DNA of 64,000 nucleotides from assembly GCF_003111685.1 (NCBI RefSeq), contig NZ_CP022189.1, positions 2,000,001 through 2,064,000 on the forward strand, written 5' to 3'. The notes beneath the pieces are model-generated. The model was not told the DNA's origin and ran no database searches. It saw only the letters and a program-made list of their open reading frames with translations. Numbering within the stretch: position 1 is the stretch's first letter; each line of letters starts with the position of its first letter. The DNA comes from Alloyangia pacifica. GTDB lineage: Bacteria; Pseudomonadota; Alphaproteobacteria; Rhodobacterales; Rhodobacteraceae. Positions 12,391 to 33,546 of this stretch are shown piece by piece. The translations under genes were made by a program, and so were the position numbers.

Positions 12391-13617
12391 TCAGCCCTTT
12401 GCCCGCGTATCCGCAGCGGGCTCGGGCGCGGCACCGAAGCTGTCGGGCCTCCCGTCGGCGCGGGTGACCACGCCGGTTTCGGAAATCACCACATCGATGG
12501 GGCTGACCGCAGCGCCGCGCTGCAGGTTGCGCAGCCCATCGACGATGAGCTGCTCGCCGATCTCGACGCCCTCGGTGACGATCCAGGCGTTGTTGTAGCT
12601 GCCCTGCGCCGCCAGGGTCCGCTTCTCGGCCTTGCCATCGGCAGCGACGAAGGCGGTCAGCGTGCCGTCCAAGGCGCGCGAGGTGGCGCCTTGCGGCACG
12701 AGGATCGAGGGGGTGGTGCCGAAGGTCAGCTTCACCCGCAGGAACTGCCCCGGAAGGATGCCGCGCCTCGGGTTGTCGAAGCGCAGCCGGATGACCGAAG
12801 TGCCGGTCGTGGTCGAAACACTCACCGGGGGCGACACGAAGGTGCCCTGCCCCTCGAACATCGAACCAGTCTCAAGTTCCAGTTCGGCCTCGATCCGCGC
12901 GCCGCGGTTCAGCGAGCCCTGGGCGAGCCGCTCTCGGGTCTGCTGCACCCGGGTGATGGATTCCTGCACGTCGACATAAATCGGGTCGATCCGCGTGACA
13001 GTGGTCAACGCGCCCTCCTGGTTGGCGGTCACCAGATCGCCGACCGAGACCTCGGGCAGCACGGCAATGCCATCGATGGGGCTGGTGATCTCGGTGCGCT
13101 CGAGGTCGAGCCTGGCGAGCTCCAGCGCTGCCTGCGCCGCGCTCAGCGTCGCCTTGGCCTGCATCACGTCGACCTCGGCGGCGTCCACGTCGGCGGCGGT
13201 CACCCCGGTGCCGACCAGCTTCTGATAGCGTGACAGCGTCGTCCCCGCGCTGCGTAGCGCCGCCTCGGCGCCCGCCACATCCGCTTCGGCGGCATCGACA
13301 TCGGCCTGATAGGTGTCACCGTCGATGCGGAAGAGCACCTCGCCCTTGGTCACGTCGCTGCCCGGCTCATAGAGAATTTCGGAAATCACCCCCGAAACGC
13401 GCGGCCGGATTGCCACCTCCTCGAAGGCGGTGGAGCGCCCCGGCAGGGTCACCGAATAGGGCACGTCGCTGGCCTCGAGCGTGATCACTCCGACCTCGCG
13501 CGCCGCGCGCGCGGCCGGAGGGGCGTCCTGGGCATGCAGCAGCTCGGCCTGTGGGAGGGTCAGCGCAAAGGCTGCGACAAGGACGCGGATGGTCCGGGGG
13601 GTGCGGCTCGACGCCAT
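12391..13617 (-). CDS. RND efflux periplasmic adaptor (AcrA/MexA-like)
   Basis: This is a 408-residue membrane-fusion protein that bridges the RND pump to an outer-membrane channel. A signal peptide occupies residues 1 to about 26 (VLVAAFALTLPQAELLHAQ), but no lipobox Cys is seen, unlike AcrA. Then come the beta-barrel/lipoyl halves (VAIRPRVSGVISEILYEPGSDVTKG and ITSPIDGIAVLPEVSVGDLV) split by a helical hairpin (residues 100-150, Ala/Asp/Glu-rich coiled coil). The ATG at 13617 has a GAAGGAGAAG ribosome binding site directly upstream. It is the first gene of the pump operon. Confidence 0.94.
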   Translation of the reverse strand: MASSRTPRTIRVLVAAFALTLPQAELLHAQDAPPAARAAREVGVITLEASDVPYSVTLPGRSTAFEEVAIRPRVSGVISEILYEPGSDVTKGEVLFRIDGDTYQADVDAAEADVAGAEAALRSAGTTLSRYQKLVGTGVTAADVDAAEVDVMQAKATLSAAQAALELARLDLERTEITSPIDGIAVLPEVSVGDLVTANQEGALTTVTRIDPIYVDVQESITRVQQTRERLAQGSLNRGARIEAELELETGSMFEGQGTFVSPPVSVSTTTGTSVIRLRFDNPRRGILPGQFLRVKLTFGTTPSILVPQGATSRALDGTLTAFVAADGKAEKRTLAAQGSYNNAWIVTEGVEIGEQLIVDGLRNLQRGAAVSPIDVVISETGVVTRADGRPDSFGAAPEPAADTRAKG

Positions 13618-13759
13618 CTTCTTCTCCTTCGGTCGGACGCGCGGGCGATCGCCGCCCGCGCGAACCCTTGATACGCAGCAACGGTGACTTTCCGTCTCGA
13701 CATTTGGAGAACATCGTCTGACCTTTTCGTGACCGCGAGCCGGAAGGCTCAAGCCAAGG

Positions 13760-13788
13760 AAAAAGGGGCGTGCCGCAGCCTGCCCCTT
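13760..13788 (-). terminator. intrinsic terminator after opgC
   Basis: AAGGGGC (13763-13769) and GCCCCTT (13782-13788) pair around a 12-base loop. Read on the minus strand the stem runs into five U residues (A-run at 13760-13764). It lies 24 bases beyond the opgC stop and ends the opg operon before the efflux promoter region. Confidence 0.8.
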
Positions 13789-13811
13789 CTCCTGGTCATG
13801 AGTGCCGGTCC

Positions 13812-15044
13812 TCAGCTCACCCGACGTTGATCGGGCTTTGCGACGAGCCCTCCCGGCGACTGTATCTCGCGCCGCACCGGTTTGCGCGACTGGGCCATCC
13901 AGGCGATAACAAGCATGATCACGACGCCCAGCGGCGGCAGACCCCAGCCCATCCAGGCCGACAGCGGGTTGCCCGCCATGATCACCTGGAAGGCCAGCGC
14001 GACGATGGTGCCGGTGCAGAAGACCAGCAGCCCCTGCTGGCCCAGCAGCCGCAGCGGTGCAGCCGCCTTGCTCGCGCAGAAGCGTGTCACGGCGGGCAGG
14101 CACGAGAGCACATAGGCCAGCGCCAGGATATTCAGAAGCCGCGGCAGGGCGACGAATGTCTTGTCGTGGGTGGTCAGGTGGAACGGGATCCCCGCCTGGT
14201 AGAGCCGCGCCATCTGATGATTGATCACCGCGCCGAACTCGGGGATGAACTTCCAGGCCACCACCAGACCGCAGAAACCCAGGCTTGCCCAGAAGAGCGG
14301 ACGGGAAACCGGCACAAAGCGCTCGCCCCGGCGCATGGCAAGGCCAGTCAGCATGCCGATGGCGAAGAGCAGCTCCCAGCTGATCGGGTTGAAGAACCAG
14401 CCGCCGGGGTTGGGGAAGTTGGGCAGGTTAAGGCGCCAGAGACCCGCGGCCATCCAGATCGCCAGCGCGGTCCAGAGCAGCGCTTTGGGCTTCCAGAGCC
14501 CCAGCAGCAGCATCGCCGGCGCGAAGAAGAGCAGCACCGAATAGGCCGGCAAGATGTTCACGTAGCCAAGCTGGTGGGTCAGAGCGGCAATGCCGAAGAG
14601 CGACTCCTCGGGGTTGGAGAACACCTGCCGCAGGTTGATCGTCTCGAGCAGCTCGGGAAGGTTGTAGATCCCCGCCCCCGCCGAGAATATGGCAATCGCC
14701 CAGACCGTCATGAAGATATGGGCCAGGTAGAGCGTCCAGCTCCGCTTCCAGACGGGCAGCACGCCGTTCAACAGCCCGTGCTCGGCGCGCGCCTCGGGCG
14801 TTAGTCGCCCGGAATAGGCCAGGGCCGCGGCGAGGCCGGACATGATGAAGAACGCTTCGGCGGCATCCGAATGGGTGAAGTTGCGGATCGTCAGGTACTC
14901 GTAAGGGTTCCCCGGCACGTGATCGATGAAGATCATGATCAGCGCCAGCCCGCGGAAGGCGTCGATGCGTGCATCGCGCGGACGCCGCGCGGGCGGTGTC
15001 TTCGTGCCAGGAAAGGAGACGAGCTTGTGTTCAGGCTGCTGCAT
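13812..15044 (-). CDS. opgC: OpgC-family glucan succinyltransferase
   Basis: This is a 410-residue membrane protein of the OpgC/acyltransferase-3-like family, about ten helices. In Rhodobacter sphaeroides OpgC adds succinyl groups to osmoregulated periplasmic glucans. The N-terminal signature RDARIDAFRGLALIMIFIDHVPG carries the conserved Arg and His-Asp seen in the family. WELLFAIGMLTG and THDKTFVALPRLLNILALAY are also family-typical. The ATG at 15044 lies 14 bases inside the end of opgH, so the two are translationally coupled. It is the last gene of opgGIHC and is followed by an intrinsic terminator. Confidence 0.92.
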   Translation of the reverse strand: MQQPEHKLVSFPGTKTPPARRPRDARIDAFRGLALIMIFIDHVPGNPYEYLTIRNFTHSDAAEAFFIMSGLAAALAYSGRLTPEARAEHGLLNGVLPVWKRSWTLYLAHIFMTVWAIAIFSAGAGIYNLPELLETINLRQVFSNPEESLFGIAALTHQLGYVNILPAYSVLLFFAPAMLLLGLWKPKALLWTALAIWMAAGLWRLNLPNFPNPGGWFFNPISWELLFAIGMLTGLAMRRGERFVPVSRPLFWASLGFCGLVVAWKFIPEFGAVINHQMARLYQAGIPFHLTTHDKTFVALPRLLNILALAYVLSCLPAVTRFCASKAAAPLRLLGQQGLLVFCTGTIVALAFQVIMAGNPLSAWMGWGLPPLGVVIMLVIAWMAQSRKPVRREIQSPGGLVAKPDQRRVS

Positions 15045-16839
15045 GCTGTGCGCCCCTTCCGAGACCGGGTTCCGGCAGGGGGGCCTGCGGCGTCCCGCTC
15101 CAGCGGGCGTGAATTTCGCGGTAGCTGCGCACCACCGGCGCGGGGGCGAGCTCATCGGGAGTGATGAAAAGACTGTGGGTCAACGGGCGCGACGTCCAGG
15201 AGATCAGAACCGGTGCGAAGAGCATCGGCAGGCAGACCGGCAGCAGCCAGGGCACCAGATCGGGCGACAGCCAGGCCGTAACCGCCAGAGCCACGGCACC
15301 GGTCGCGGTGATCCAGAGGCCCGCGCGAATGCCCTGCACCAAGGTCAACTGTCCCTCGCCGCGCTGGCTGGAGGGCCAGCCGCCGTCACGGCCGGAAAGC
15401 ACCTGAAGCACGGCCTTGGTCTGGTACATCAGCATCAAGGGCGCGATGAGTGAGGTCAGCGCGACCTCGGTGATCACCGACCAGAAGGCCCGCATCCCGC
15501 CTCCGAACCCGCCGACCCGGCGGGTCAGGACGCTTTCGATGAGGATCGCGAACTTGGGCATGATGAGCAGGCCGAAAATCCCGATCATCAGGGCGATCAT
15601 CTCCTTGGTCCGATCGCTCGGAAAGACCGGAAACAGCAGGTGCGGCTCGGGGAAGTAATCGGGCGGTGGCGCGGTCACCGCGGCGATCACCGAGGCCACG
15701 AGGAAGCCGAACCAAAGCAGCGACACGAGATACGAGAAGATGCCCAGCACGAAGACGAAGCGGCTCCAGGGCGCGAGGCCCGGCGCCGTCAGCAGCCGGA
15801 TGTGCTGCAGATTGCCCTGACACCAGCGGCGGTCGCGCTTGGCAAAGGACAGAAGGTTCTCGGGGCCTTCCTCGAAGGAGCCGTCGATACCGCCATCCAC
15901 CTCGACCTTCCAGCCCGCGCGGGCTAGCAGCGCCGCCTCGACGTAGTCATGGCTGAGGATATGCCCGCCGAAGGGCGGCTTGCCCTGCAATTCGGGCAGA
16001 CCGCAGCTCTCGGCGAAGGCTTGCACCCGCACGATGGCGTTGTGACCCCAGAACGGTCCGGTCGCCCCCTGCATGCGGGCCAGCCCGCGAGTGAAGACCG
16101 GGCCATGGAAAGCAGCGGCGAACTGCATGGCGCGGCCGAAGAAGCTGCGCCCGCCGACGATGCGCGGAAGGGTCTGCAGCAGGCCGATCTGAGTGTCGGC
16201 CTGCATCCGTGCGATCATCTGACGGATGGCGGCACCCTCCATCAGGCTGTCCGCGTCGAGGATCACAGCCAGTTCGTAGGCGCCGCCGGAGCGGCGGAAG
16301 AAATCCTCGATATTGCCCGCCTTGCGACCACGGTTGTCCTCGCGGCGGCGGTAGAAGATGCGCCCATGCCCACCGGTCTCTTCGAGCAGACGCACGAAGG
16401 TGCGGCGCTCTTCTTCTGCCGCGGCGTCGTCACGGGTGTCCGACAGAATGGCAACGTCCGCCGTCACCCCTGCCGCCAGGATCGATGAGTCCATTGCGGC
16501 GATGCGCGCGAAGGTGGCCACCGGGTCCTCGTTGCAAATTGGCACGAGCACCGCGGTGCGCGGCTGCGGCATCTGCACCTGCATCTGCATCTGCATCTCG
16601 CGCGTCCCGCGCCGGCTCAGCGGCGCAAGCCCGGTGAGCGCCAGCGCAGCCCCCCAAGCCAGCCAGGCGGTGGTGACCAGGATCAGCCCGGCGCGCACGA
16701 AGTCAAAAGGTTCGACCCCGTCCTGCAGGGCAACCTCAAGCAATAGACCTGTCGCTACCCCCGCCGCGACGAGCGCGAAGGCCGCAGAGAAAAGACGGGT
16801 GGCCACAGTCATGCGGCTGGGCGAGGGCAAGACCGGCAT
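15031..16839 (-). CDS. opgH: periplasmic glucan glucosyltransferase OpgH
   Basis: This is a 602-residue inner-membrane GT2 enzyme that polymerises UDP-glucose into the beta-linked backbone of osmoregulated periplasmic glucans. The catalytic domain opens with TAVLVPICNEDP. It continues with FYRRREDNRGRKAGNIEDF, the DAD of VILDADSLMEG, GPFWGHNAIVRV, and the RDRRWCQGN acceptor motif. Helices flank it on both sides. It is shorter at the N terminus than the 847-residue E. coli protein. Residues 82-90 are the in-frame repeat MQMQMQVQM, encoded by a hexanucleotide microsatellite. The start is ATG 16839 or 16812; the former is listed. It follows opgI by ten bases. Confidence 0.95.
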   Translation of the reverse strand: MPVLPSPSRMTVATRLFSAAFALVAAGVATGLLLEVALQDGVEPFDFVRAGLILVTTAWLAWGAALALTGLAPLSRRGTREMQMQMQVQMPQPRTAVLVPICNEDPVATFARIAAMDSSILAAGVTADVAILSDTRDDAAAEEERRTFVRLLEETGGHGRIFYRRREDNRGRKAGNIEDFFRRSGGAYELAVILDADSLMEGAAIRQMIARMQADTQIGLLQTLPRIVGGRSFFGRAMQFAAAFHGPVFTRGLARMQGATGPFWGHNAIVRVQAFAESCGLPELQGKPPFGGHILSHDYVEAALLARAGWKVEVDGGIDGSFEEGPENLLSFAKRDRRWCQGNLQHIRLLTAPGLAPWSRFVFVLGIFSYLVSLLWFGFLVASVIAAVTAPPPDYFPEPHLLFPVFPSDRTKEMIALMIGIFGLLIMPKFAILIESVLTRRVGGFGGGMRAFWSVITEVALTSLIAPLMLMYQTKAVLQVLSGRDGGWPSSQRGEGQLTLVQGIRAGLWITATGAVALAVTAWLSPDLVPWLLPVCLPMLFAPVLISWTSRPLTHSLFITPDELAPAPVVRSYREIHARWSGTPQAPLPEPGLGRGAQHAAA

Positions 16840-16849
16840 GCGCAGGTCC

Positions 16850-17032
16850 TCAGGCTCTCTGGCCGGGCATCAATATGCGCGCAATCATCTCTCCCAGCGA
16901 CACGCGCTCGGCGCGCGGTGCCTCGATTTCCTGCCGCGGCATGTCCATCGGCGCCTCGGGCGGAGCCCAATGCGGCATTTCGATAGCGCGAGCCTCGGCG
17001 ACGTGCAGTTCCTTCATCGGTTCAGCATTCAT
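16850..17032 (-). CDS. opgI: small OpgI-like protein between opgG and opgH
   Basis: This is a 60-residue soluble-looking protein, rich in Glu, Pro, Met and Ala, ending in SLGEMIARILMPGQRA. Its ATG overlaps the opgG stop (ATGA, 17029-17032) and it ends ten bases before opgH. Both its position and its coupling are as expected for a real gene rather than a chance frame. Rhodobacter sphaeroides has a small gene, opgI, in exactly this slot of its opgGIHC operon, and the symbol is given for that reason. Its biochemical role is not known to me. One thought is that it supplies part of the cytoplasmic N-terminal region missing from this short OpgH, which is inference. Confidence 0.75.
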   Translation of the reverse strand: MNAEPMKELHVAEARAIEMPHWAPPEAPMDMPRQEIEAPRAERVSLGEMIARILMPGQRA

Positions 17033-18657
17033 TCCTTCACCCATTGATAAGTCCAGGTTTCGGTAAGCATACGACCATACCCTTTGAGCCCCGCCTTGAG
17101 TTCGGCGACCGCGCCGTCCGGCGCGTCGACTTCCAGAACAAGACGCCATGTCTCGGTCCCCGAGATTCGGCTCACTACCGCTTCGGCAATCTCAGCGTTG
17201 GCGGCACTTACTTGTGGTTCAACTTCGGCGCCAGCGGGAAGTTCCCCCAAAGTGCCGCCTTCGAAATCGATGACGAATTTCCGCCGATCGGTGTCCTGCT
17301 CGACCCCAGATATGCCGCCCCTGCCAACCCGCGTGCGCACCACGCGGGCCCGGTCGACGGCCCCGTCGCCCACCGGGGTCATGCCCCAATGCAGGTGATA
17401 GGAAAATTCCAGCGCATCCCCGGCCTTGGTCTCGGCCTTGGGGATCCAGAAAGCGACGATATTGTCGTTGGCCTCCAGATCCGAAGGGATCTCGACCAGC
17501 CGCACCGAGCCCTCGCCCCAATCGCCGATCGGCTCCACCAGCAGCGTCGGGCGCTTCTCGTAATGGGCCTGGGCGTCGAGGTAATGCTCGAACTCGCGAG
17601 TCCGCTGTACCAGCCCGAAGCGCACCGGGCTGAGCGCGCCGAAGTAGGAACTTGCCAGCCGCGGCGGGTTGTTGAGCGGGCGGAAGAAGGTCTCGCCGCC
17701 CTGGGTGGTCAGCATCAGCGCTTCGCTGTCGTGCACCGCAGGGCGGAAATCGTCGAAGTCACCCATGTCCGGCCCGCCGAAAAGGAACATCGAGGTGAGC
17801 GGCGCAATGCCGAGCTGCTGGATGTCATTGCGCAAGAAGAGCCGCGCGGTCACGTCGATCTGCGTGTCCTCGCCGGGGCGGATCACGAAGCGGTAGGCGC
17901 CGGTGATCGAGGCACTGCCAAGCGCCGCGTAGACGGTCATGTGCTCGGCGCCCGGGCCGGGGCGTTCGAGCCAGAACTCGTTGAACCGCGGGAATTCCTC
18001 GGCCCCCGACAGACCGGTGTTCACCGCCAGCCCGCGGGCGCTGAGCCCGTAGGTGTTGTCGCGTCCGAGCGCGCGGAAATAGCTCGCGCCGAGGAAGGCC
18101 ACCAGCTCGTCGAAGGTGTCGGCGCGGTTCAGCGGGTTGTGCAGCCGGAAGCCGGCGACGCCCGGCATCTCGGCATTTTCGGGGATCGGTGTCTCGACCG
18201 AGGAATAGTCGAAATCCGCGGTCGAGAAATGCATCAGCCGCGACTCGCCGTTGACCACCTCATGCAGGCGCACAGGCTGCTTGAACAGCCAGCCGAGGTG
18301 GAAGGCATGCAGCCGGAACGTGTCGTCCGGCAGATCCGCCCAACGGGCCTTGTCGGGATCGAACCGGATGCGCTGGTAGCCGTCGTAGTCGAGCTCGGCA
18401 AGGAAGCCCTCGACCTGCTCGGGTTCCAGCGGGGGCGCTTTCGCGGCCTCGGCCATCTGCGCCGAGAGGATGTCGAAGGAAAAGGGGGTTGTCTCGCTCT
18501 GGGTCTGCTCGTCGGGGGCCGCGTTGGTGCCTTCTTCGGTCGTCTCCTGCGCGTCAAGGGACGTCGCGCTCAGAAGCGCGGGAACGGCGGCGGAGCCGGC
18601 AAGCTGGGCCAGGAACTGGCGTCGGTTTTGACGCGCCACGAACGCGCGTCCGGACAC
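17029..18657 (-). CDS. opgG: glucan biosynthesis protein OpgG/OpgD
   Basis: This periplasmic protein of about 540 residues is needed for osmoregulated periplasmic glucan backbone synthesis. The leader contains RQNRRQFLAQLAGSAAVPALLS, a twin-arginine-type signal as in OpgD. The mature part has the family features PFSFDILSAQMAEAA, the beta-sandwich core (YFRALGRDNTYGLSARGLAVNTG, then EEFPRFNEFWLERPGP), and a C-terminal Ig-like domain ending ETWTYQWVKE. No ATG fits the start. GTG codons at 18657 and 18639 both precede the twin arginine, neither with a strong ribosome binding site, so the exact start is uncertain. It is the first gene of opgGIHC. Confidence 0.92.
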   Translation of the reverse strand: MSGRAFVARQNRRQFLAQLAGSAAVPALLSATSLDAQETTEEGTNAAPDEQTQSETTPFSFDILSAQMAEAAKAPPLEPEQVEGFLAELDYDGYQRIRFDPDKARWADLPDDTFRLHAFHLGWLFKQPVRLHEVVNGESRLMHFSTADFDYSSVETPIPENAEMPGVAGFRLHNPLNRADTFDELVAFLGASYFRALGRDNTYGLSARGLAVNTGLSGAEEFPRFNEFWLERPGPGAEHMTVYAALGSASITGAYRFVIRPGEDTQIDVTARLFLRNDIQQLGIAPLTSMFLFGGPDMGDFDDFRPAVHDSEALMLTTQGGETFFRPLNNPPRLASSYFGALSPVRFGLVQRTREFEHYLDAQAHYEKRPTLLVEPIGDWGEGSVRLVEIPSDLEANDNIVAFWIPKAETKAGDALEFSYHLHWGMTPVGDGAVDRARVVRTRVGRGGISGVEQDTDRRKFVIDFEGGTLGELPAGAEVEPQVSAANAEIAEAVVSRISGTETWRLVLEVDAPDGAVAELKAGLKGYGRMLTETWTYQWVKE

Positions 18658-18772
18658 AACAGGACTAGAGATCGGATACTTCCGCAAATGTCTGCTCCAA
18701 GGGGTGGTACTGGGCGGGAATCTGATAGCGAGTACGGGAAAGACAACACCCCGTAATCTAAGGGGTTCCCTA

Positions 18773-18788
18773 CAAAAGCGGGCTTTTG
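18773..18788 (-). terminator. hairpin, possible terminator of the amidase/racemase operon
   Basis: CAAAAGC (18773-18779) and GCTTTTG (18782-18788) form a perfect seven-base stem. It lies 80 bases past the racemase stop and upstream of opgG. On the minus strand the stem ends in TTTTG, a short U-tract. It could equally be part of the opgG promoter or leader. Confidence 0.45.
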
Positions 18789-18867
18789 CTGCGCGGCGGC
18801 AAGACTCTGCCGAATCTCCGCTCATGCTGCGCTTTCGAAGGCAATCCACTGGCGGATTGCCGCAGAT

Positions 18868-25231: not shown

Positions 25232-26830
25232 TTACTCTTCGATCGTGATCGACGAGAAGTTCTGGTACCAGTTCTGGGCCTGAACGAAGCCCTTCACCTT
25301 CGGCGCCATGGCGCGCGGGGCGACGTCATGGGTGACCATCAGGAAGAGTGCGTCATCGACGTATTTCTCATGCGTCTTGCGCAGCACCTCGTCCTGAGCC
25401 TCGGGGTCGAAGGTCGTCTTGATCTGCGAGAAAAGCTCCTGCATCTCGGGGTCGCTGTAGTGGCCCCAGTTGGTGCCGTTCGGTGCGATCAGGTTCTCGT
25501 CGAGGTGCCGGATCAGGCCGGTGAACGGGTCCTGAATGAAGTAGGTGAAGTTGATCGACATAGCGCCGTCGACCGCGGGATCGGCCGCGCCGGCACGCCA
25601 CAGGTTGATCATCTGGTTCCACTCGACGACCATGAACTCGACGTCGATCCAGATCTCGGCAAGGCTCTGCTGGACATATTCGTTCATCGGCAGCGGCAGC
25701 ATCTGGCCCGAACCCGAGGGCGAGATCAGCGCCTTGACCTTCAGGTGGTTGTCGGGACCGTAGCCCGCTTCTTCCATCAGCGCCTTGGCGGCCTCGAGGT
25801 CATATTTCACCTCGAAGCTCGGATTGCCGAACCACTGCGAACTCGGCGGCAGGAAGCCCTTGGCCGGAACCATGAGCCCGCCCAGCAGCGGCATCATGCC
25901 CTCGCGGTCGATGGCGAGGTTGGCGGCCTTGCGCACACGGATGTCGTTCCAGGGCGAGCCCTCGAGGCGCGACAGGTGCCAGGTCCAGTTGTGCGGATAG
26001 GCATTCGAGGAGATGACGAAACCGTTGCCTTCCATCGCCGGGATGGTGTCGGGCGCCGGGGCCTCGATCCAGTCGACCTGCCCCGAGAGCAGCGCGGCAG
26101 AGCGGGCGTTGGGCTCGGGCAGCGGGATCAGCACCATCTTGTCGAGCTTGGGGATGCGGGTCTCGTCCCAGTAATCGGCAAAGGGCACCATCTCGGCGCG
26201 CTCGCGCGGCACGAAGGTCTCGAGCTTCCAGGGGCCGGTGCCCGAGGGGCTGCCCGCAACCTTCTCCCAGTCCTTGTCCATGGCTTCCCAGTTGGCCTTG
26301 GACGACATCAGGATCCAGGTCATCTGGTAAGGCAACGTGGCGTCGGGCTCCTTGGTGGTGATCACCAGCGTGTAGTCGTCCACCGCTTCGTATGAGGCCA
26401 CGGCGGGGATGCGCGACTTGCCCTGCGCCGCCTGGCGCGGGTCATACTGCTCGGAGCTCTCGTCGAGGATCTTGTCGAGGTTCCACACCACGTCGGCGGC
26501 GGTGAAGGGCGCACCGTCGTGGAAGGTCACCCCCTCGCGCAGCTTGAAGGTCCACTTGGTCTTGTCCTCGGCGTCCACCGACCACTCGGTGGCGAGGCCA
26601 GGGATCAACACCGACGGCTTGTCGGCGCTGGTGAGATCCCATTCGATCAGCGAGTCATAGACGGTGTAGCCCATGAAGCGCATGCCCTCGCCGCCCTGGT
26701 CGGTCTGACCGGTGGTGAGAGGGATGTCGGCCGCGGTCATGCCGACGCGCAGCGTGCCCTGCGCCAGTGCGGCACCGGCCATGGTGGCAGCGACGGCGAG
26801 CGCCGCGATACCTGCTTTCAGACGAAGCAT
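25232..26830 (-). CDS. peptide-type ABC transporter substrate-binding protein (SBP family 5)
   Basis: This 532-residue periplasmic binding protein is the first gene of the importer operon. A Sec signal peptide covers residues 1-23 (AGIAALAVAATMAGAALAQ). The SBP_bac_5 core is clear: DKTKWTFKLREGVTFHDGAPFTAADVVWNLD, then VRKAANLAIDREGM. Family-5 proteins bind dipeptides, oligopeptides, glutathione, opines or amides. The amidase, RidA and racemase genes downstream argue for an amide or modified amino acid rather than a plain peptide, as inference. The ATG at 26830 has GGAGG upstream (minus strand). Confidence 0.94.
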   Translation of the reverse strand: MLRLKAGIAALAVAATMAGAALAQGTLRVGMTAADIPLTTGQTDQGGEGMRFMGYTVYDSLIEWDLTSADKPSVLIPGLATEWSVDAEDKTKWTFKLREGVTFHDGAPFTAADVVWNLDKILDESSEQYDPRQAAQGKSRIPAVASYEAVDDYTLVITTKEPDATLPYQMTWILMSSKANWEAMDKDWEKVAGSPSGTGPWKLETFVPRERAEMVPFADYWDETRIPKLDKMVLIPLPEPNARSAALLSGQVDWIEAPAPDTIPAMEGNGFVISSNAYPHNWTWHLSRLEGSPWNDIRVRKAANLAIDREGMMPLLGGLMVPAKGFLPPSSQWFGNPSFEVKYDLEAAKALMEEAGYGPDNHLKVKALISPSGSGQMLPLPMNEYVQQSLAEIWIDVEFMVVEWNQMINLWRAGAADPAVDGAMSINFTYFIQDPFTGLIRHLDENLIAPNGTNWGHYSDPEMQELFSQIKTTFDPEAQDEVLRKTHEKYVDDALFLMVTHDVAPRAMAPKVKGFVQAQNWYQNFSSITIEE

Positions 26831-27193
26831 TGGAACCTCCGAGATTTCCCTGTTGCACGGCCCGGCTTTTCTGTGCTGCCGGTCCCCGGATCATTTGACG
26901 CGACCACCCGGGCTTTTTGCAGTGGCCGTGGCGGTTCAGGGCAAAGCGACCGCCAACAATTGCAAAAGTCGCCCACAAAAAATGCAAACAAACCCCGCGC
27001 GCTCAGGAAAAGGGCGGCGCGAAATCGTATTTGTACGAATAAACTCGCCTCTGCCGATCGAAGGAACCCGTTGCGGATTAGCCTCACGCCATGGTGGAAC
27101 GTCACAGGTTCTGCTCGCGTAAACTTTGGGAATGGGGCAGAAGACGGCTAATTATCAGTCATATGCGTCCCGGAAGCCGAAAGACGATAGCGA
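26831..27193. other. divergent intergenic region, 363 bases
   Basis: This gap separates the divergent peptide-importer operon and the GH8 operon, so it must hold both promoters. It is less GC-rich than the genes and holds short A-runs (around 26975). A small inverted repeat TCGTA-tttg-TACGA lies at 27025-27038. No coding region is supported. Confidence 0.6.
27126..27154 (+). promoter_or_regulatory. possible promoter of the GH8-HlyD-GT2 operon
   Basis: TTGGGA at 27126-27131 and TAATTA at 27149-27154 are separated by 17 bases, 40 bases before the GTG start. The match to consensus is modest and was found by eye. Confidence 0.3.
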
Positions 27194-28222
27194 GTGATCA
27201 ACAGACGCCAAATGATGTCCGGAGCCGCAGCCCTGCTTGCGACCGGGCTCCCGGCCGAGGCCGCCCCCCTGGATCCGGGGCAATGCTGGCGCTTCTGGCG
27301 CGCGCGGTTCGTTCAGCCCGACGGGCGCGTGGTGGATGATCTGCAGAACGCCACGAGCCACTCCGAGGGTCAGGGATACGGGCTTCTGCTGGCACAGGCC
27401 CATGGCGACGAGCGCACCTTCCGCAATATCGAGGAATGGACCGACCACAACTTGGCCATTCGCCAGGACAACCTCATGGCGTGGCAGTGGATTCCGCGCC
27501 GGCGCGACAATATCGACGACTGGCACAATGCCACCGATGGCGACCTGTTCCGGGCCTGGGCGCTGCTGCGCGCCGCGCGGGACAGCGGTTGGTGGGAATA
27601 CCGCGACAAGGCCATCGCCATTGCCCGCGACATCTCGGCACTCTGCCTTGCGCCCGATCCGCGCGCACCCGGGGAGTTGCTGCTCAAGCCCGGCGCCGAA
27701 TCCCGCGCCACCCCCGAGAGGGTGCTCTTCAACCCTTCCTACATCATGCCTCGCGCCCTGCGCGAGCTGGGCTACGCCGCCGACGACGACCGGCTGATCC
27801 GCGCCGCCGATCACTGCGAAACGGTGCTCGCCGAACTCTCGCGCGAGCCGGTGATGCCCGACTGGATCGACGTGACGCCGGGCGGCTTCGCCCCCCCGCA
27901 GGAACACGAGCTGCGCTCAAGCTATGACGCGCTGCGCATTCCACTCTACCTCGGCTGGTCCGAGCGCAATGGCAATCCGGCAGTGAGCCATGTGCTTGAC
28001 CGGCTGGAAAGCGCGGGCGCGCCGGGTAAGCTCGCGGTGAGCGTCGATGCCGCCGGAGGCCTCCGGGACCTTTCCGACCATGCGGGCTACCTCGCGATCC
28101 TCGCCCTCGGCCGCTGCGGCCCGCTCCCCGAGATCACCACGCAGGATACGGCGCAATCCTACTATCCTGCCACCCTGCAGCTTCTTGCCCACCTCGCCAA
28201 AAGAGAACAACGTCACTGCTGA
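27194..28222 (+). CDS. glycoside hydrolase family 8 endoglucanase (BcsZ-like)
   Basis: This is a 342-residue secreted or periplasmic beta-glucanase. The start is GTG 27194 followed by INRRQMMSGAAALLATG, a twin-arginine-like export signal ending near residue 23. The GH8 acid is Glu58 in TSHSEGQGYGLLLA, and NATDGDLFRAWALL follows (Asp115/Asp117). The conserved RSSYDALRIPLYLGW has Asp245. BcsZ-type enzymes trim or edit nascent cellulose-like polymer during secretion. It stands first in a locus with an HlyD-like protein and a GT2 synthase, 139 bases before the former, so it probably edits that product rather than feeding on external cellulose. Confidence 0.92.
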   Translation: MINRRQMMSGAAALLATGLPAEAAPLDPGQCWRFWRARFVQPDGRVVDDLQNATSHSEGQGYGLLLAQAHGDERTFRNIEEWTDHNLAIRQDNLMAWQWIPRRRDNIDDWHNATDGDLFRAWALLRAARDSGWWEYRDKAIAIARDISALCLAPDPRAPGELLLKPGAESRATPERVLFNPSYIMPRALRELGYAADDDRLIRAADHCETVLAELSREPVMPDWIDVTPGGFAPPQEHELRSSYDALRIPLYLGWSERNGNPAVSHVLDRLESAGAPGKLAVSVDAAGGLRDLSDHAGYLAILALGRCGPLPEITTQDTAQSYYPATLQLLAHLAKREQRHC

Positions 28223-28361
28223 CCGCCCTGTTCGGGCCACAATCCGACGCTAGGAAACCGGCGGCGCGCACCGGCGGTCAATGGGCCGTGCAACTGCTTG
28301 CACCTCGGAGAGGGCTGCGGTGTTATGCCCTTGAAGCAGGCACAAAAAATACGAGCAGGAC

Positions 28362-29531
28362 ATGAAGTACACCCGCCTCATCATCGGCATCGCCGCCATT
28401 CTTGTCACGCTCTGGGTCATCATCGGTGAACAGATGACCGCTGCCAGCGCCAACGCCGTGGTCAACGCGCCGGTCGCGACACTGCGCAGCCCGATCGCCG
28501 GAACCCTCGAACTGCAGGCCCATGCACTTGGCGCGCGCCTTTCGCAAAACGAGCTGCTCGCAACGGTGACCGACACGCGCGCCGACACGACGCGCCTCGC
28601 CGACCTGCAACTCGAGCTCGAAACGCTGGACGCCGGGATCAACCGCATTCAGGCGCAGATCGCAGCGCTCAGCAGGGAGCGCGACACGCTGCTGCAGCGC
28701 AGCGAGACTTTCACAAAGGCGCGCCTCGCCGAGCTTGAGGCCGAGCTTGCCGAAGCGCGGATCCGGCGAGACCTCCTGCAGCGCGGCGACGCCTACGCAA
28801 GCGCCGCCCCCGGTGGCGAGGCAACCTTCGATGAAAGCGGTCGCGCCGGCACGCCGCACGCCTCTGCCCTTGCGCTCTCGCATGCCCGCGAGCGGGTCGA
28901 GACCCTGCAGATCGCGCGCGACGCCCTGCAGCAGGGGGTCTTCCTTGGCGACGGCTACAACGACGCCCCCTTCTCCGAACAGCGCCGGATCCAGCTCGAC
29001 GCGCAAATCGCCGAGCTTGGGCTCGCCCGCATCGAGGCGAGCGCAAAAACGGCGGCGCTCGAACGCCGCATCACCCGCGCCCGCCAGACGCAGGGCCTCG
29101 AGTCGCGCAGCGAGCTGCGCGCGCCCGCCGCCGATATGCTCTATTGGGAGACCCTCCAGGCCGATGCTGTCACCGTGCAGCGCGGCGATCCGCTGATCCG
29201 GGTCGTGGACTGCGGGCAGAGCATCATCACCCTGTCGGTGACCGAGCGCGTCTTCAACACGCTGCGCGTCGGTCAGGACGCCAGCTTCCGCTTCACCGGC
29301 CAGTCCCACGTCTATCCCGCCACCGTGGGGCGGCTCGCGGGAAGCGGCGCGCGCAGCATCTATGCCAATCTCGCCGTCGCACCGAGCGAAAAGCACCTCG
29401 AGCGCTTCGACGTCACCCTGCTGGCACCCGACCTTAACGCCGACCCTGAGCTCGGCTGCGCCATCGGACGCACCGGGCGCGCCTTCTTCGACGGCCGTCC
29501 GCTCGACCTCTTCCGCCACTGGTTCAACTGA
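28362..29531 (+). CDS. HlyD-like membrane-fusion protein (BgsB-like)
   Basis: This is a 389-residue protein with one N-terminal membrane helix (residues 5-22, LIIGIAAILVTLWVIIGEQ). A biotinyl-lipoyl half follows (APVATLRSPIAGTLELQ), then a long helical hairpin (residues 70-245, Leu/Ala/Glu/Arg coiled coil), a second lipoyl half (LRAPAADMLYWETLQADAVTVQRGDPL) and a beta-barrel region. It ends two bases before the GT2 start. A GT2 synthase of about 660 residues preceded by a membrane-fusion protein of about 400 is the arrangement of bgsB-bgsA, which makes a mixed-linkage beta-glucan in Sinorhizobium meliloti. The product assignment is inference. Confidence 0.82.
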   Translation: MKYTRLIIGIAAILVTLWVIIGEQMTAASANAVVNAPVATLRSPIAGTLELQAHALGARLSQNELLATVTDTRADTTRLADLQLELETLDAGINRIQAQIAALSRERDTLLQRSETFTKARLAELEAELAEARIRRDLLQRGDAYASAAPGGEATFDESGRAGTPHASALALSHARERVETLQIARDALQQGVFLGDGYNDAPFSEQRRIQLDAQIAELGLARIEASAKTAALERRITRARQTQGLESRSELRAPAADMLYWETLQADAVTVQRGDPLIRVVDCGQSIITLSVTERVFNTLRVGQDASFRFTGQSHVYPATVGRLAGSGARSIYANLAVAPSEKHLERFDVTLLAPDLNADPELGCAIGRTGRAFFDGRPLDLFRHWFN

Positions 29532-29532
29532 C

Positions 29533-31512
29533 GTGGCGCCCTTCCCGCACCTTGGCGAGCTCGGCTCGAGCAGTGCCTACCTTCTGCTGGTGGCGGGGGT
29601 TGGGCTCGTGCTGCCCTTCGTCGTCAACCCAGACCGGACCCGCGCCCGCGCGCTGCTCTTCGGAGTCGCCGGCATCTTCGCGATCCGCTACGCCTGGTGG
29701 CGCGGCACCGAGACGCTGGCGCCTCCGGGACTGACCATCGACGCGGTGATGAGCTACGCGCTCTACGCGCTCGAGTTGCTCACCCTCGTCGGCTCGCTCA
29801 GTGCCTTTCTCATCCTCGCCCGCGTCAAGCAACGCGGCGCCGAGGCAACGGAGCACCTCGGCTGGTGGGGCGAGGCCGAACCCAAGGTGGCGGTGATGAT
29901 CGCCACCTACAACGAGGATCGCGATATTCTCGAGCGCACGATCATCGGCGCCAAGTCGCTGCGGCACAGCAACACGGAAGTCATCATCCTCGATGACAAC
30001 CGGCGGGACTGGCTGCGCGACTACTGCATCGAGCAAAAGGTGCGCTACATGCGCCGGCCCGACAACAAGGGCTCGAAGGCCGGCAACATCAACCACGCGC
30101 TTGATCGGCTCGCCGAGGATCCCGAGCCGCCGCAGTTCATTGCCGTGCTCGACGCGGATTTCGTGCCGCACCGGGGCTTCCTGTCGCGCTCCTTGGCGCT
30201 GTTCCACGATCCGACCGTGGGGCTGGTGCAGACCCCCCAGCATTTCTTCAACGCGGACCCGATCCAGCACAACCTCGGGCTCAGCGCCTCCTATCCCGAT
30301 GAGCAGCGCTTTTTCTTCGACCACATGCAGGCCTCGCGCGATGCCTGGGACATCGCCTTTTGCTGCGGCACCTCGTCGGTCTGCCGCTGGGAGGCGGTGC
30401 GCAGCATCGGCGGCTTCCCGACCGAGAGCATCACCGAGGACTTCATGCTCACCATCGCGCTGCAGAACGAAGGCTGGCGCTCGATTTATCTCAACGAGCC
30501 GCTGACCGAGGGGCTCGCGCCGGAGGGGCTCAAGGAGTACGTCACCCAACGCGCCCGCTGGTGCCTTGGACTGATGCAGATCGCCCGCTCCTCGCTCGGC
30601 CCCTTCTCGAAGTCGAACCTGCGCCTGCGCGACCGCTGGAGCGTGATCGACTCGGTGTTCTTCTGGACCACGAGTTTCCCCTTTCGCATCGCCGCAGTGA
30701 TCTTTCCGCTGCTCTACTGGTTCTTCGGCATCACCGTCGTCGACGCGCGGCTGGCCGACGTGCTGGTCTACTTCGGGCCCTACTACGTCTGGGTGACCAT
30801 GGTGATGAACCTGATGTCACGGGGTCTGATGATCCCGGTGATCCACGAGGTCGGCCAGCTGATCGCCGCAATCCCGATCACCCGCGCCGCCTATACCGGG
30901 CTGCTGCGCCCCAAGGGCCACAAGTTCTCCGTCACCGCCAAGGGTGGCGACCGCTCGCGCGTGGTGGTGCAGTGGCGATTGATGATGCCTTTCGCGATCG
31001 CCCTGGGGCTCAGCATCGTCGGGCTGTGCCTCGGCATCTTCAGCGACAGATTCGCGATGAACGATGCCGGCGACGGCAAATGGGTCATCCTGTTCTGGAC
31101 GCTCTACAACGTGGTCGTTCTGGCGGTGACCTGCTTCACTTGCGTCGAGCTTCCGCGCTCGGAAACCCATATGGCCGACAAGCCCGAGCGGGTCACCTTC
31201 AGCGCGGGCGGCGAGACCCAGGAGCTCTGGCTGTCCTCGCTGACGCTCGACACCGCCCGGCTACGCGGCAAGCCCTACCCGCCTCAGACGCGGGGCGTGC
31301 TGCACCTGCCCGACGTCGGCAACCTCGAGGCCTATGTGATTGCGCCCACCACCGACGGCGCGCGGCTGCAGCTCGTGCCGACCGAGGAGCAGCGAGAGGC
31401 GCTCTTCGTGCGCTTCTACGCCGAGGGCGACGCGCCGGGGGTGGTCAGCACCCGCGTCTCGGCGGTGCTCTCCGACATCGCACGCCGCGTCAGCTTCGGC
31501 CTGCCCGGCTGA
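29533..31512 (+). CDS. GT2 processive beta-glucan synthase (BgsA/BcsA-like)
   Basis: This is a 659-residue inner-membrane glycosyltransferase. The GT-A domain runs from about residue 115. It has DDN at 154-156, the DAD of VLDADF at 207-209, TED at 301-303 and the processive QRARW motif at 339-343. Helices lie on both sides. The C-terminal cytoplasmic domain (from about 545) sits where cellulose synthases have PilZ, but lacks a clear RxxxR plus D/NxSxxG pair (it reads ERVTF and SSLTLDTARLRG). In S. meliloti BgsA a non-PilZ C-terminal region binds c-di-GMP, and the same may hold here. GTG 29533 was chosen because it begins right after the HlyD stop; the upstream extension overlaps that gene. 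A cellulose or curdlan product is the alternative. Confidence 0.88.
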   Translation: MAPFPHLGELGSSSAYLLLVAGVGLVLPFVVNPDRTRARALLFGVAGIFAIRYAWWRGTETLAPPGLTIDAVMSYALYALELLTLVGSLSAFLILARVKQRGAEATEHLGWWGEAEPKVAVMIATYNEDRDILERTIIGAKSLRHSNTEVIILDDNRRDWLRDYCIEQKVRYMRRPDNKGSKAGNINHALDRLAEDPEPPQFIAVLDADFVPHRGFLSRSLALFHDPTVGLVQTPQHFFNADPIQHNLGLSASYPDEQRFFFDHMQASRDAWDIAFCCGTSSVCRWEAVRSIGGFPTESITEDFMLTIALQNEGWRSIYLNEPLTEGLAPEGLKEYVTQRARWCLGLMQIARSSLGPFSKSNLRLRDRWSVIDSVFFWTTSFPFRIAAVIFPLLYWFFGITVVDARLADVLVYFGPYYVWVTMVMNLMSRGLMIPVIHEVGQLIAAIPITRAAYTGLLRPKGHKFSVTAKGGDRSRVVVQWRLMMPFAIALGLSIVGLCLGIFSDRFAMNDAGDGKWVILFWTLYNVVVLAVTCFTCVELPRSETHMADKPERVTFSAGGETQELWLSSLTLDTARLRGKPYPPQTRGVLHLPDVGNLEAYVIAPTTDGARLQLVPTEEQREALFVRFYAEGDAPGVVSTRVSAVLSDIARRVSFGLPG

Positions 31513-31531
31513 GCACGGCTGGCGGGGAACC

Positions 31532-32101
31532 TCAGAAGGTGTTCACCGAGAAGCCGATGAAGAACTCCTCGGACTCGAAGCGGTAGCCGGCGCGGAAGCT
31601 CACCGGCCCGTCATAATGCTTGGTCACCGCCAGCGTCGTGTCGCTGTAGCTGTCGCTGCCGCCGGTCGAAAGCTCTGTGCCAAAACCCGTTTCTCCCCAA
31701 CCGCTTGAGGCCAGCAGGAACCAGCTGTTGTCGATGCTGTTGACCTCGGCGAGGTAGTAGAACGACCCCCAGTCGGTGGCCATCCAGCGATCGAGCGAGG
31801 CGCGTACCCCCAGCTCGTAGCTGTCTTCCTCGCCATCCTTGAAGACAGCGCCCAGGGCCGGGCCGACCTTGAAGTTGGCGCCGAAGGGCGTGTCGAAACC
31901 GTAGAGCACGCTGCCGACCACCGAATAGCCGCCGTCCCAATGGCTCACGATGCCGCCGTAGTTGAGCCGATCCCGGGTCACGGCCAGCACCGCACCGGCA
32001 GTGGTATTGGCCTGTTCGATCTGCACGAAGGTGCCATCGGCAAGCGCGGCTAGCGGGCTGATGGCAAGCGCTGCCGCGCCGAGGGAGGCGGTGATCTTCA
32101 T
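31532..32101 (-). CDS. small outer-membrane beta-barrel-like protein
   Basis: This is a 189-residue protein with a Sec signal peptide (residues 1-22, ending ALA-DG). The rest alternates polar and hydrophobic residues with many Gly, Tyr, Trp and Ser, and it ends in Phe (GFSVNTF). All of this suits a small outer-membrane barrel of 8 to 10 strands. It converges with the GT2 gene, with only 19 bases between stops. It is tempting as an exit pore for the glucan, but it is on the other strand and not in that operon. No family was recognised. Confidence 0.75.
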   Translation of the reverse strand: MKITASLGAAALAISPLAALADGTFVQIEQANTTAGAVLAVTRDRLNYGGIVSHWDGGYSVVGSVLYGFDTPFGANFKVGPALGAVFKDGEEDSYELGVRASLDRWMATDWGSFYYLAEVNSIDNSWFLLASSGWGETGFGTELSTGGSDSYSDTTLAVTKHYDGPVSFRAGYRFESEEFFIGFSVNTF

Positions 32102-32244
32102 GGCTGGGTCCGTTTTCCTGAAACTGCTCCCCGGATCTGTGCCCGGCTTGACGCGAGCTTTGCAAGGCAAGCCCGCCGATGCAAGAGGCGGGGGAGACAG
32201 CCGCGGCGCGTGACCCGCCTGCACTGGTCGCCGCGCAATTGCAG

Positions 32245-32269
32245 AGGGGCGGAGGTTTCCCCCGCCCCT
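32245..32269 (-). terminator. hairpin after pcaF
   Basis: AGGGGCGG (32245-32252) and CCGCCCCT (32262-32269) pair perfectly. The hairpin lies about 85 bases beyond the pcaF stop and upstream of the barrel gene. There is no U-tract, so termination is only probable. Confidence 0.5.
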
Positions 32270-32300
32270 TGCGAGCTCTCTCGAACTCGGGTCGCTCCGC

Positions 32301-32370
32301 TCACGCGCCTTCGAGCACAGTCGGGATCACGCGCCTTCGAGCGCAGTCGGGATCACGCGCCTTCGAGCGC
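32301..32370. repeat. 26-base tandem repeat made from the 3' end of pcaF
   Basis: Copies start at 32301, 32327 and 32353. The first two are 26 bases long and differ at one base. The third is the last 18 bases of the pcaF coding sequence plus stop, after which the match ends. The final codons of the gene therefore appear to have been duplicated twice into the downstream spacer. Confidence 0.85.
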
Positions 32371-33546
32371 GATCGCAATCCCCTGGCCGACGCCAATGCA
32401 CATGGTCGCCAGCGCCTTCTGGCCTGCCTTCAGCTCCAGCGCGGCAGTGCCGGTGATGCGCGCGCCCGACATGCCGAGCGGATGGCCAAGCGCGATGGCG
32501 CCGCCGTTGGGGTTCACCCGCGCGTCATCATCGGCGATGCCGAGGTCGCGCAGCGTGGCGAGCCCCTGCGAGGCAAAGGCCTCGTTCAGCTCGATCACGT
32601 CGAAGGCGTCCTGCGTCAGACCCAGCCGCGCCATCAGCTTCTTCGAGGCCGGCGCAGGACCGAAGCCCATGATGCGCGGCTCGACACCCGCCGTAGCGCC
32701 GCCAATAATGCGCGCGATCGGTGTCAGCCCGTGCGCCTTCACCGCCGCTTCCGAAGCGACGATGAGCGCCGCGGCGCCGTCGTTCACCCCCGAGGCGTTG
32801 CCCGCGGTCACCGACCCGCCCTCGCGGAAGGGCGTCGGCAGCTTGGCGAGCTTCTCGAGCGAGGTCTGGCGCGGGTGCTCGTCGGTATCGACGACCAGCG
32901 GATCGCCCTTGCGCTGCGGGATGGTCACCGGGGTGATCTCCTGCGCAAGGCGGCCATTGACCTGCGCGGCAGCGGCCTTCTCCTGCGAGCGCATCGCGAA
33001 GGCATCCTGATCCTCGCGCGAGATGCCGAACTCTTCGGCGACGTTCTCGCCGGTCTCGGGCATGCTATCCACGCCGTATTGCGCCTTCAGCGCCTTGTTG
33101 ACGAAGCGCCAGCCGATGGTGGTGTCGTAGATCTCGGCGTTGCGCGAAAAGGCCGAAGTGGCCTTCGGCAGGACGAAGGGCGCGCGGCTCATGCTCTCGA
33201 CACCGCCCGCGATCGCCAGCTCGATCTCGCCCGCCTTGATGGCGCGCGCCGCCGCGATGATCGCGTCCATGCCCGAGCCGCACAGGCGGTTGAGCGTGGT
33301 GCCCGGCACGGAGACCGGCAGACCCGCCAGCAGCGCCGACATGCGCGCGACGTTGCGGTTGTCTTCGCCCGCCTGGTTGGCGCAGCCAAAGTAGACCTCG
33401 TCCACCGCCGACCAGTCGATGTCGTGCTTGGCCATCAGCGCCTTCAGCGGGATGGCCCCCAGATCGTCGGCGCGCACCGACGAGAGCGCGCCGCCGAAAC
33501 GGCCGATGGGCGTGCGGATGTAGGAACAGATATAGGCGTCGGTCAT
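32353..33546 (-). CDS. pcaF: 3-oxoadipyl-CoA thiolase (acetyl-CoA acyltransferase)
   Basis: This is a 397-residue thiolase. It cleaves 3-oxoadipyl-CoA into succinyl-CoA and acetyl-CoA, the last step of the beta-ketoadipate pathway. The acyl-enzyme Cys is Cys89 (NRLCGSG). The His of GGAIALGHPLGMSGAR and the second Cys of CIGVGQG complete the site. Sequence alone does not exclude an acetoacetyl-CoA thiolase. It is called pcaF because it lies one base after the CoA-transferase pair pcaIJ and near a divergent IclR regulator. The end of the coding region is duplicated downstream. Confidence 0.9.
   Translation of the reverse strand: MTDAYICSYIRTPIGRFGGALSSVRADDLGAIPLKALMAKHDIDWSAVDEVYFGCANQAGEDNRNVARMSALLAGLPVSVPGTTLNRLCGSGMDAIIAAARAIKAGEIELAIAGGVESMSRAPFVLPKATSAFSRNAEIYDTTIGWRFVNKALKAQYGVDSMPETGENVAEEFGISREDQDAFAMRSQEKAAAAQVNGRLAQEITPVTIPQRKGDPLVVDTDEHPRQTSLEKLAKLPTPFREGGSVTAGNASGVNDGAAALIVASEAAVKAHGLTPIARIIGGATAGVEPRIMGFGPAPASKKLMARLGLTQDAFDVIELNEAFASQGLATLRDLGIADDDARVNPNGGAIALGHPLGMSGARITGTAALELKAGQKALATMCIGVGQGIAIALEGA

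Follow-up and report, generated by a model that had tools for sequence, protein, structure and literature searches.

A GH8-HlyD-GT2 locus of Alloyangia pacifica: a beta-glucan-type synthase with a PilZ-fold tail lacking cyclic di-GMP motifs, and a possible dCache partner

Gene content and distribution

The window analysed here is a stretch of 64,000 nucleotides of Alloyangia pacifica DNA (contig NZ_CP022189.1, positions 2,000,001 to 2,064,000). Our subject is a run of three genes within it, encoding a GH8 endoglucanase, an HlyD-type membrane-fusion protein and a processive GT2 synthase of the beta-glucan type, together with a small beta-barrel gene on the opposite strand (Table 1). The positions and sizes that an earlier sequence-only reading assigned to the three proteins are confirmed. 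GH8 and HlyD are separated by 139 bases, and a single base lies between the HlyD stop and the GT2 start. The GH8 protein has an N-terminus that looks signal-like by eye, retains the motifs SEGQGYG, NATDGD and SSYDALR, is closest by sequence among solved structures to the endoglucanases 1wzz and 6vc5, and shares 43% identity with each of the two GH8 enzymes in the genome's own bcs runs. The HlyD protein, with a single N-terminal hydrophobic stretch (again judged by eye), is the proposed periplasmic conduit. The processive motifs DD, DAD, QTPQ, TED, QRARW and FSVTAK are all found in GT2. No BcsB adjoins it. The genome has two bcsB copies, each inside a bcsA-bcsB-GH8-TPR run elsewhere, so that the BcsB proteins of this genome are those of other synthases; a partner bcsB at a distance is rejected on the same ground.

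The divergent gene, which that reading missed, encodes a protein with no Pfam match at E ≤ 1. Its model is a barrel of 12 strands (predicted local distance difference test, pLDDT, 90.8), and the C-terminal residue is Phe or Tyr in all 25 aligned sequences, that of the window included. KdgM heads the Foldseek list (E 6.4e-4), and VIA-align gives VhGalP 17.3, PcoB 16.6, KdgM 16.4 and NanC 15.9, the next match scoring 14.3. The 12-stranded fold is shared with the KdgM and NanC porins, but PcoB is unlike most of the top matches, which are oligosaccharide porins, and a function is therefore only suggested. We propose the barrel as an outer-membrane exit; it is a candidate for that step in HlyD-linked glucan synthases and may be the exit so far missing from such systems.

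Related loci (L numbers) are the best 80 of 572 relatives from a scan of named genomes; absence from their flanks was called with tblastn at E ≤ 1e-5 for 9 of 11 query proteins, some flanks being short. The search for the three-gene order that the earlier reading had suggested finds GH8-HlyD-GT2 on one strand in 21 of the 80 in addition to the window, and the order is also present on a Sulfitobacter indolifex plasmid, a recurrence that goes beyond chance. An HlyD homologue is detected by tblastn in 79 loci, the remaining one (L069) starting within GT2, and a barrel homologue in 29. Thirty-nine loci combine full flanks with a GT2 of at least 57% identity, 29 from Rhodobacterales and 10 from Hyphomicrobiales. 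GH8 occurs in 17 of the former and none of the latter and is therefore mainly a Rhodobacterales feature; there is one weak GH8 match in L068 (Caenispirillum). A second survey took in about one genome per genus of the family, 394 in all (G numbers, G000 being the window's own genome), with the best 3 (GT2), 5 (dCache) and 8 (barrel) first-look candidates scored in each. Twelve of these genomes have the barrel, and 11 of the twelve also have the GT2 orthologue, which is present in 21 genomes. G291 (L146:7895-10541) is the only barrel genome without the orthologue, and there the barrel adjoins another GT2-family gene, of 661 residues.

The trio is of a known kind. Passages of a description of cyanobacterial Xcs operons (PMC12430437) place a BcsB-less synthase, an HlyD-like protein and an endoglucanase together in some species, and the window locus shares this arrangement of one operon without BcsB; the trio alone is thus not a new variant of secretion system, for which the sequence-only reading had seen a good test case. 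Xcs, made up of XcsA, XcsB and XcsC, has TolC as outer-membrane partner. The window-type set differs from Xcs as described in coming with a dCache protein and a KdgM-like barrel.

Table 1. Positions of the features discussed, numbered within the window unless a genome and contig are given
Feature	Position	Strand	Remarks
GH8 endoglucanase, BcsZ/XcsC-like	27194..28222	+	342 residues; PF01270 137.1 bits (cut-off 24)
HlyD-type membrane-fusion protein	28362..29531	+	389 residues; PF13437 39.1 bits (cut-off 22.2)
Processive GT2 beta-glucan-type synthase	29533..31512	+	659 residues, GTG start; PF13641 87.5 bits
GT2 gating-loop motif FSVTAK, residues 465-470	30925..30942	+	From sequence and alignment
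GT2 C-terminal tail, residues 541-659	31153..31509	+	PilZ fold, altered ligand site, Glu544
Small beta-barrel, KdgM/NanC-like fold	31532..32101	-	189 residues, 12 strands, C-terminal Phe
dCache gene of the same genome	G000:C1:1431971-1433023
Own cellulose synthase loci (L130, L131)	G000:C1 about 793000-801000; C3 about 119000-126000
MdoG	17029-18849	-	Periplasmic-glucan set
GT2 of periplasmic-glucan set	15031-16839	-
OpgC	13812-15155	-	Periplasmic-glucan set
HlyD-type protein of periplasmic-glucan set	12391-14103	-

The synthase and its tail

The textbook switch of bacterial cellulose synthases is cyclic di-GMP (c-di-GMP) acting through a PilZ domain. The GT2 sequences were compared in a table of 109 rows, including that of the window, 66 of which make up the window clade. 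The table omits L001, L004, L005, L007, L010, L011, L124 and L129, rows shorter than 590 residues (L069) and the identical rows L101, L102, L103, L104, L106, L109 and L113. Trees were built without the tail, from the catalytic and membrane regions. The window GT2, whose closest relatives are L021 and L022, groups apart from both BcsA and BgsA. Joining the window side and BgsA in one clade lowers the log-likelihood by 109 and is rejected by the approximately unbiased (AU) test, with p 4e-75 for 18 window-side rows and 2e-12 for a narrower set of 13. A single clade is not rejected for the 18 rows alone (p 0.42); the wide window clade is a single group in a quick tree (97) and is not single in a careful, smaller one. 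BgsA itself groups with a PilZ-intact, HlyD-linked group of the genome's own family (99/99).

The residues agree with the trees. Arg599 and His615 of BgsA are needed for c-di-GMP binding according to passages of PMC5567048; with the numbering checked on L018, all 66 window-clade rows have a gap at the place of Arg599, and none has His at that of His615. We therefore reject the assignment of the synthase as BgsA, and the kinship to BgsA from which the sequence-only reading had argued for a c-di-GMP-activated, mixed-linkage glucan is not supported. The likeness to BgsBA of S. meliloti and R. etli is one of layout, HlyD directly preceding a GT2 of about 660 residues without a Pfam PilZ match; the BgsBA loci L018 and L020 have no GH8, barrel or dCache match in their 4-kb flanks.

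Best matches in a structure search are BcsA chains, but GT2 reaches 367.5 bits against the NCBIfam CelA profile, below the cut-off of 699.1, and the locus further differs from BcsAB(Z) in having no BcsB, no c-di-GMP motifs and no Arg580. The synthase was thus found neither firmly inside BcsA with a true PilZ domain nor in partnership with a bcsB, and its earlier description as a BcsB-less, HlyD-linked processive enzyme of the beta-glucan type with a GH8 of its own is supported, the trees placing it outside the BcsA clade. In L019, called CrdASC (curdlan)-like because of its gene sizes and a single primer site that matches with 2 mismatches, an HlyD-like protein precedes a non-BcsB GT2 of comparable size; a second published primer finds no match there within 3 mismatches. 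Its GT2, however, is only 33% identical to that of the window, it has no GH8 or dCache match, and nothing in the window matches its CrdC-like protein (best E 1.7). The switch tyrosine of plant CslF6, as given in excerpts of its description, was tried by eye as a guide to linkage and led to no conclusion.

Pfam detects no PilZ domain (PF07238) in GT2 at E ≤ 1, nor PilZ anywhere in the genome at that level. The earlier observation that no PilZ domain is obvious is correct to this extent, but the label non-PilZ for the tail is misleading. The AlphaFold2 model has six strands and a helix over residues 552-629, with the proviso that its input alignment included PilZ-intact sisters, which may have steered the model towards this fold. 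Structural alignment with 4p00 spans 631 residues and reaches residue 655. The BcsA chains 4p00, 5ej1 and 4hg6 align over 622-631 residues and plant chains over 467-483, although the plant synthases 6wlb, 7d5k and 8dqk also show a last aligned residue near 650. Comparison of window-clade tails with those of PilZ-intact sisters by hhalign gives 96%, against less than 0.1% for control stretches of HlyD and dCache. The same method gives 65% with a 700-residue group and 0.2% with BcsA. Such negatives mean little because intact Bradyrhizobium PilZ tails are not linked to BcsA PilZ tails either (less than 0.1%). The tail is a PilZ-fold domain without c-di-GMP motifs, homologous to the intact PilZ tails of sister synthases.

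In the tail RxxxR is replaced by Glu544 and Ala548, and [DN]xSxxG reads SLTLDT. R. sphaeroides BcsA lies outside the alignment and its Arg580 and Arg584 places were counted ungapped from a conserved Glu. At the Arg580 place, the latch, Glu occurs in 66 of 66 orthologues and Arg in 25 of 25 PilZ-intact rows, whilst Glu371, the partner of the latch, is Glu in all 109; the four BcsA rows from other genomes all have Arg at both places. With both motifs lost and the latch Arg exchanged for Glu, release of the latch by c-di-GMP should therefore no longer apply. The sister synthases of Bradyrhizobium (L017, L088-L100; 42-45% identity), likewise with HlyD nearby, differ in keeping Arg580 and a true PilZ domain (47.5 bits in L017, the one scanned), with no dCache gene in the flanks. 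For RiGT2, passages of PMC10374906 report a PilZ domain that is needed though c-di-GMP binding was undetected.

The tail of BgsA matches intact PilZ tails weakly in hhalign (20 and 41% for two sequences) and we do not claim it as PilZ. The grouping, among L018 and L121-L123, of BgsA with PilZ-intact, HlyD-linked synthases of about 700 residues suggests from sequence that its c-di-GMP domain may be a derived PilZ. In the two cellulose synthases of the window's own genome the second PilZ motif is missing and Leu occupies the Arg580 place; judged by these residues, all three synthases of the genome may be free of PilZ control.

The dCache protein

A second gene overlooked by the sequence-only reading lies outside the window. 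Most GT2 loci of relatives have nearby a gene for a protein with a dCache domain between two membrane stretches, ending after a HAMP-like stub; Pfam finds no output domain in the three of these proteins scanned. There is no dCache match in the window, and the genome's own copy (E 1.5e-89) lies 0.6 Mb off between unrelated genes.

Among loci with full flanks, a dCache gene accompanies 36 of the 39 with a GT2 of at least 57% identity, six of six at 47-57% and both from Azospirillum, as opposed to none of the nine PilZ-intact loci below 46.5%. In the 394 genomes, a GT2 orthologue (at least 57% identity and at least 844 bits; next best 330) is present in 21 and a dCache protein (profile E ≤ 1e-20, linkage to GT2 not required; weakest match among the 21 genomes 7e-52) also in 21, and the two sets are identical. 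Were all sets equally likely the chance of this would be 3e-35, but that figure is too extreme, since linked genes move together. More is to be learnt from the genomes without linkage, the window's own and G149, in which the dCache gene sits beside the barrel gene on a different contig from GH8-HlyD-GT2. The dCache gene of the L021 genome lies beyond the 6-kb flanks.

Thirteen genomes with a PilZ-intact GT2 were searched with the dCache profile at the same threshold and six gave matches: three stubs, each beside a second, PilZ-degenerate GT2, and three dCache-GGDEF proteins of 573-597 residues. All six of the closest longer relatives scanned (L153, L155-L159) are diguanylate cyclases of the dCache-GGDEF type. 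Their dCache domain is related to that of the stub, which differs in stopping after the HAMP-like stretch. In the tree, five of these relatives fall together with the stubs of Azospirillum (98/98), and both Azospirillum GT2s have an intact PilZ domain beside a stub, a combination that fits an intermediate step. Given these GGDEF-bearing relatives and the Azospirillum pairing, it seems that the parts concerned with c-di-GMP have been lost from the sender (the dCache protein) as well as from the receiver (the PilZ tail). A single clade of stubs is not rejected, nor is it established (p 0.21). Three Bradyrhizobium genomes (L150-L152) each have two related HlyD-GT2 synthases, a PilZ-intact one without a dCache neighbour and a PilZ-degenerate one with it, and so offer a natural control pair.

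Control of the synthase and genomic context

We regard as evenly poised the proposal that the locus is a linear beta-glucan secretion system in which the c-di-GMP switch has been replaced by a dCache sensor. GT2 would polymerise UDP-glucose and thread the chain through its own membrane channel, HlyD would take the place of BcsB in carrying the glucan across the periplasm, GH8 would trim it and the KdgM-like barrel, where present, would release it. In the ancestral synthase the PilZ tail presumably kept the gating loop shut until c-di-GMP bound. The window clade retains the fold, but with the motifs gone and the latch an invariant Glu, control has probably passed to a dCache protein with transmembrane and HAMP segments, resembling a diguanylate cyclase minus its GGDEF domain. 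This protein may sense something periplasmic, and as it has no output domain the simplest action would be direct contact with the synthase or with HlyD. A bolder version, which we put forward tentatively and hold to be less probable than not, is that an entire c-di-GMP pathway has collapsed into that contact. A periplasmic ligand would then gate a synthase of the cellulose superfamily through the membrane with no second messenger, the sender having lost its cyclase domain, the receiver its site, and the charge of the latch having been reversed; the barrel may in addition be the missing exit.

Several observations weigh against replacement of the switch by a dCache sensor. According to passages of PMC5567048, the BgsA tail, without PilZ motifs, still binds c-di-GMP (KD 0.23 µM), so the loss of motifs is no proof of lost binding. 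Conservation is lower in the tail than elsewhere in the synthase, with a mean majority share of 0.58 compared with 0.84 for the GT domain and 0.75 for the membrane part that follows. Most of the co-occurrence involves linked genes, which may travel together, and examples without linkage are scarce. In L059 and L070 the GT2 is present but the genome yields no strong dCache match; the same holds for L082, in which the contig stops just past GT2. The stub tree is discordant with the GT2 tree for the window, whose dCache protein falls with its counterparts in L014, L029, L042, L045, L067 and L027, and G144, G159 and G229 have two or three stubs each. In the tblastn comparison GH8 is not found in 52 of the 80 loci and the barrel not in 51, some of the flanks being short. 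Since L059 and L070 keep Glu544 and His546, the motif to which these belong is not simply a docking site for the dCache protein; PRxExH had been tried in that role and was rejected both for this reason and because the group at 47-57% identity has the dCache gene without the motif.

Three other explanations have to be set beside the dCache sensor. The locus may make plain beta-1,4-glucan as an Xcs-like cellulose system, with GH8 equivalent to XcsC and the dCache protein an accessory inherited alongside, with no part in gating the synthase. We think this rather unlikely. The protein kinds correspond to XcsA, XcsB and XcsC in the passages of PMC12430437, the kinship of GH8 lies with endoglucanases and the structural matches of GT2 are led by BcsA chains; XcsA, however, is described there with a PilZ domain, whereas both motifs are gone in the window GT2 with the fold kept, a comparison by description only. 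An identical distribution over 21 genomes and retention of an unlinked dCache gene are also hard to explain if that gene has no function here.

We consider improbable a system of the BgsBA type, with c-di-GMP bound by the tail in some manner other than that of PilZ and with the alternating 1,3/1,4 beta-glucan of S. meliloti as product. The HlyD-GT2 pairing is the same, at 34-37% identity, the residues Asp608, Tyr633 and Arg656 of BgsA have the same residue at their places in 63, 56 and 63 of the 66 rows respectively, and there are five GGDEF matches in the whole genome. Set against these are the AU test, the placement of BgsA in a different, PilZ-intact group and the absence of Arg599 and His615. 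A synthase made constitutive by loss of the latch, under purely transcriptional control, with the dCache protein regulating for example export or adhesion, is harder still to credit. PMC5567048 describes BcsA R580A as constitutively active, and L059 and L070 do without any strong dCache match, their HlyD proteins being short (222 and 301 residues), but a tail with 21 positions from 541 on conserved to at least 85% in the 66 rows is not simply decaying.

If control by a dCache sensor is correct, it would constitute a second way to turn on cellulose-type synthases. A latch of opposite charge and a cyclase-like sensor without its cyclase domain make the question of control directly testable. In searches of open-licence PMC papers we found no description of a charge-reversed latch or of a co-retained dCache protein.

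The run lies between genes for an oligopeptide ABC transporter and a set comprising a thiolase, CoA transferases and an IclR regulator. BcsC is not among these neighbours, which were examined without a profile search for it. An Rfam scan of 26600-32600 gave no match at gathering score, and a known RNA between the genes is thereby rejected. Nearer the start of the window, on the reverse strand between 12391 and 18849, is a periplasmic-glucan set (Table 1).

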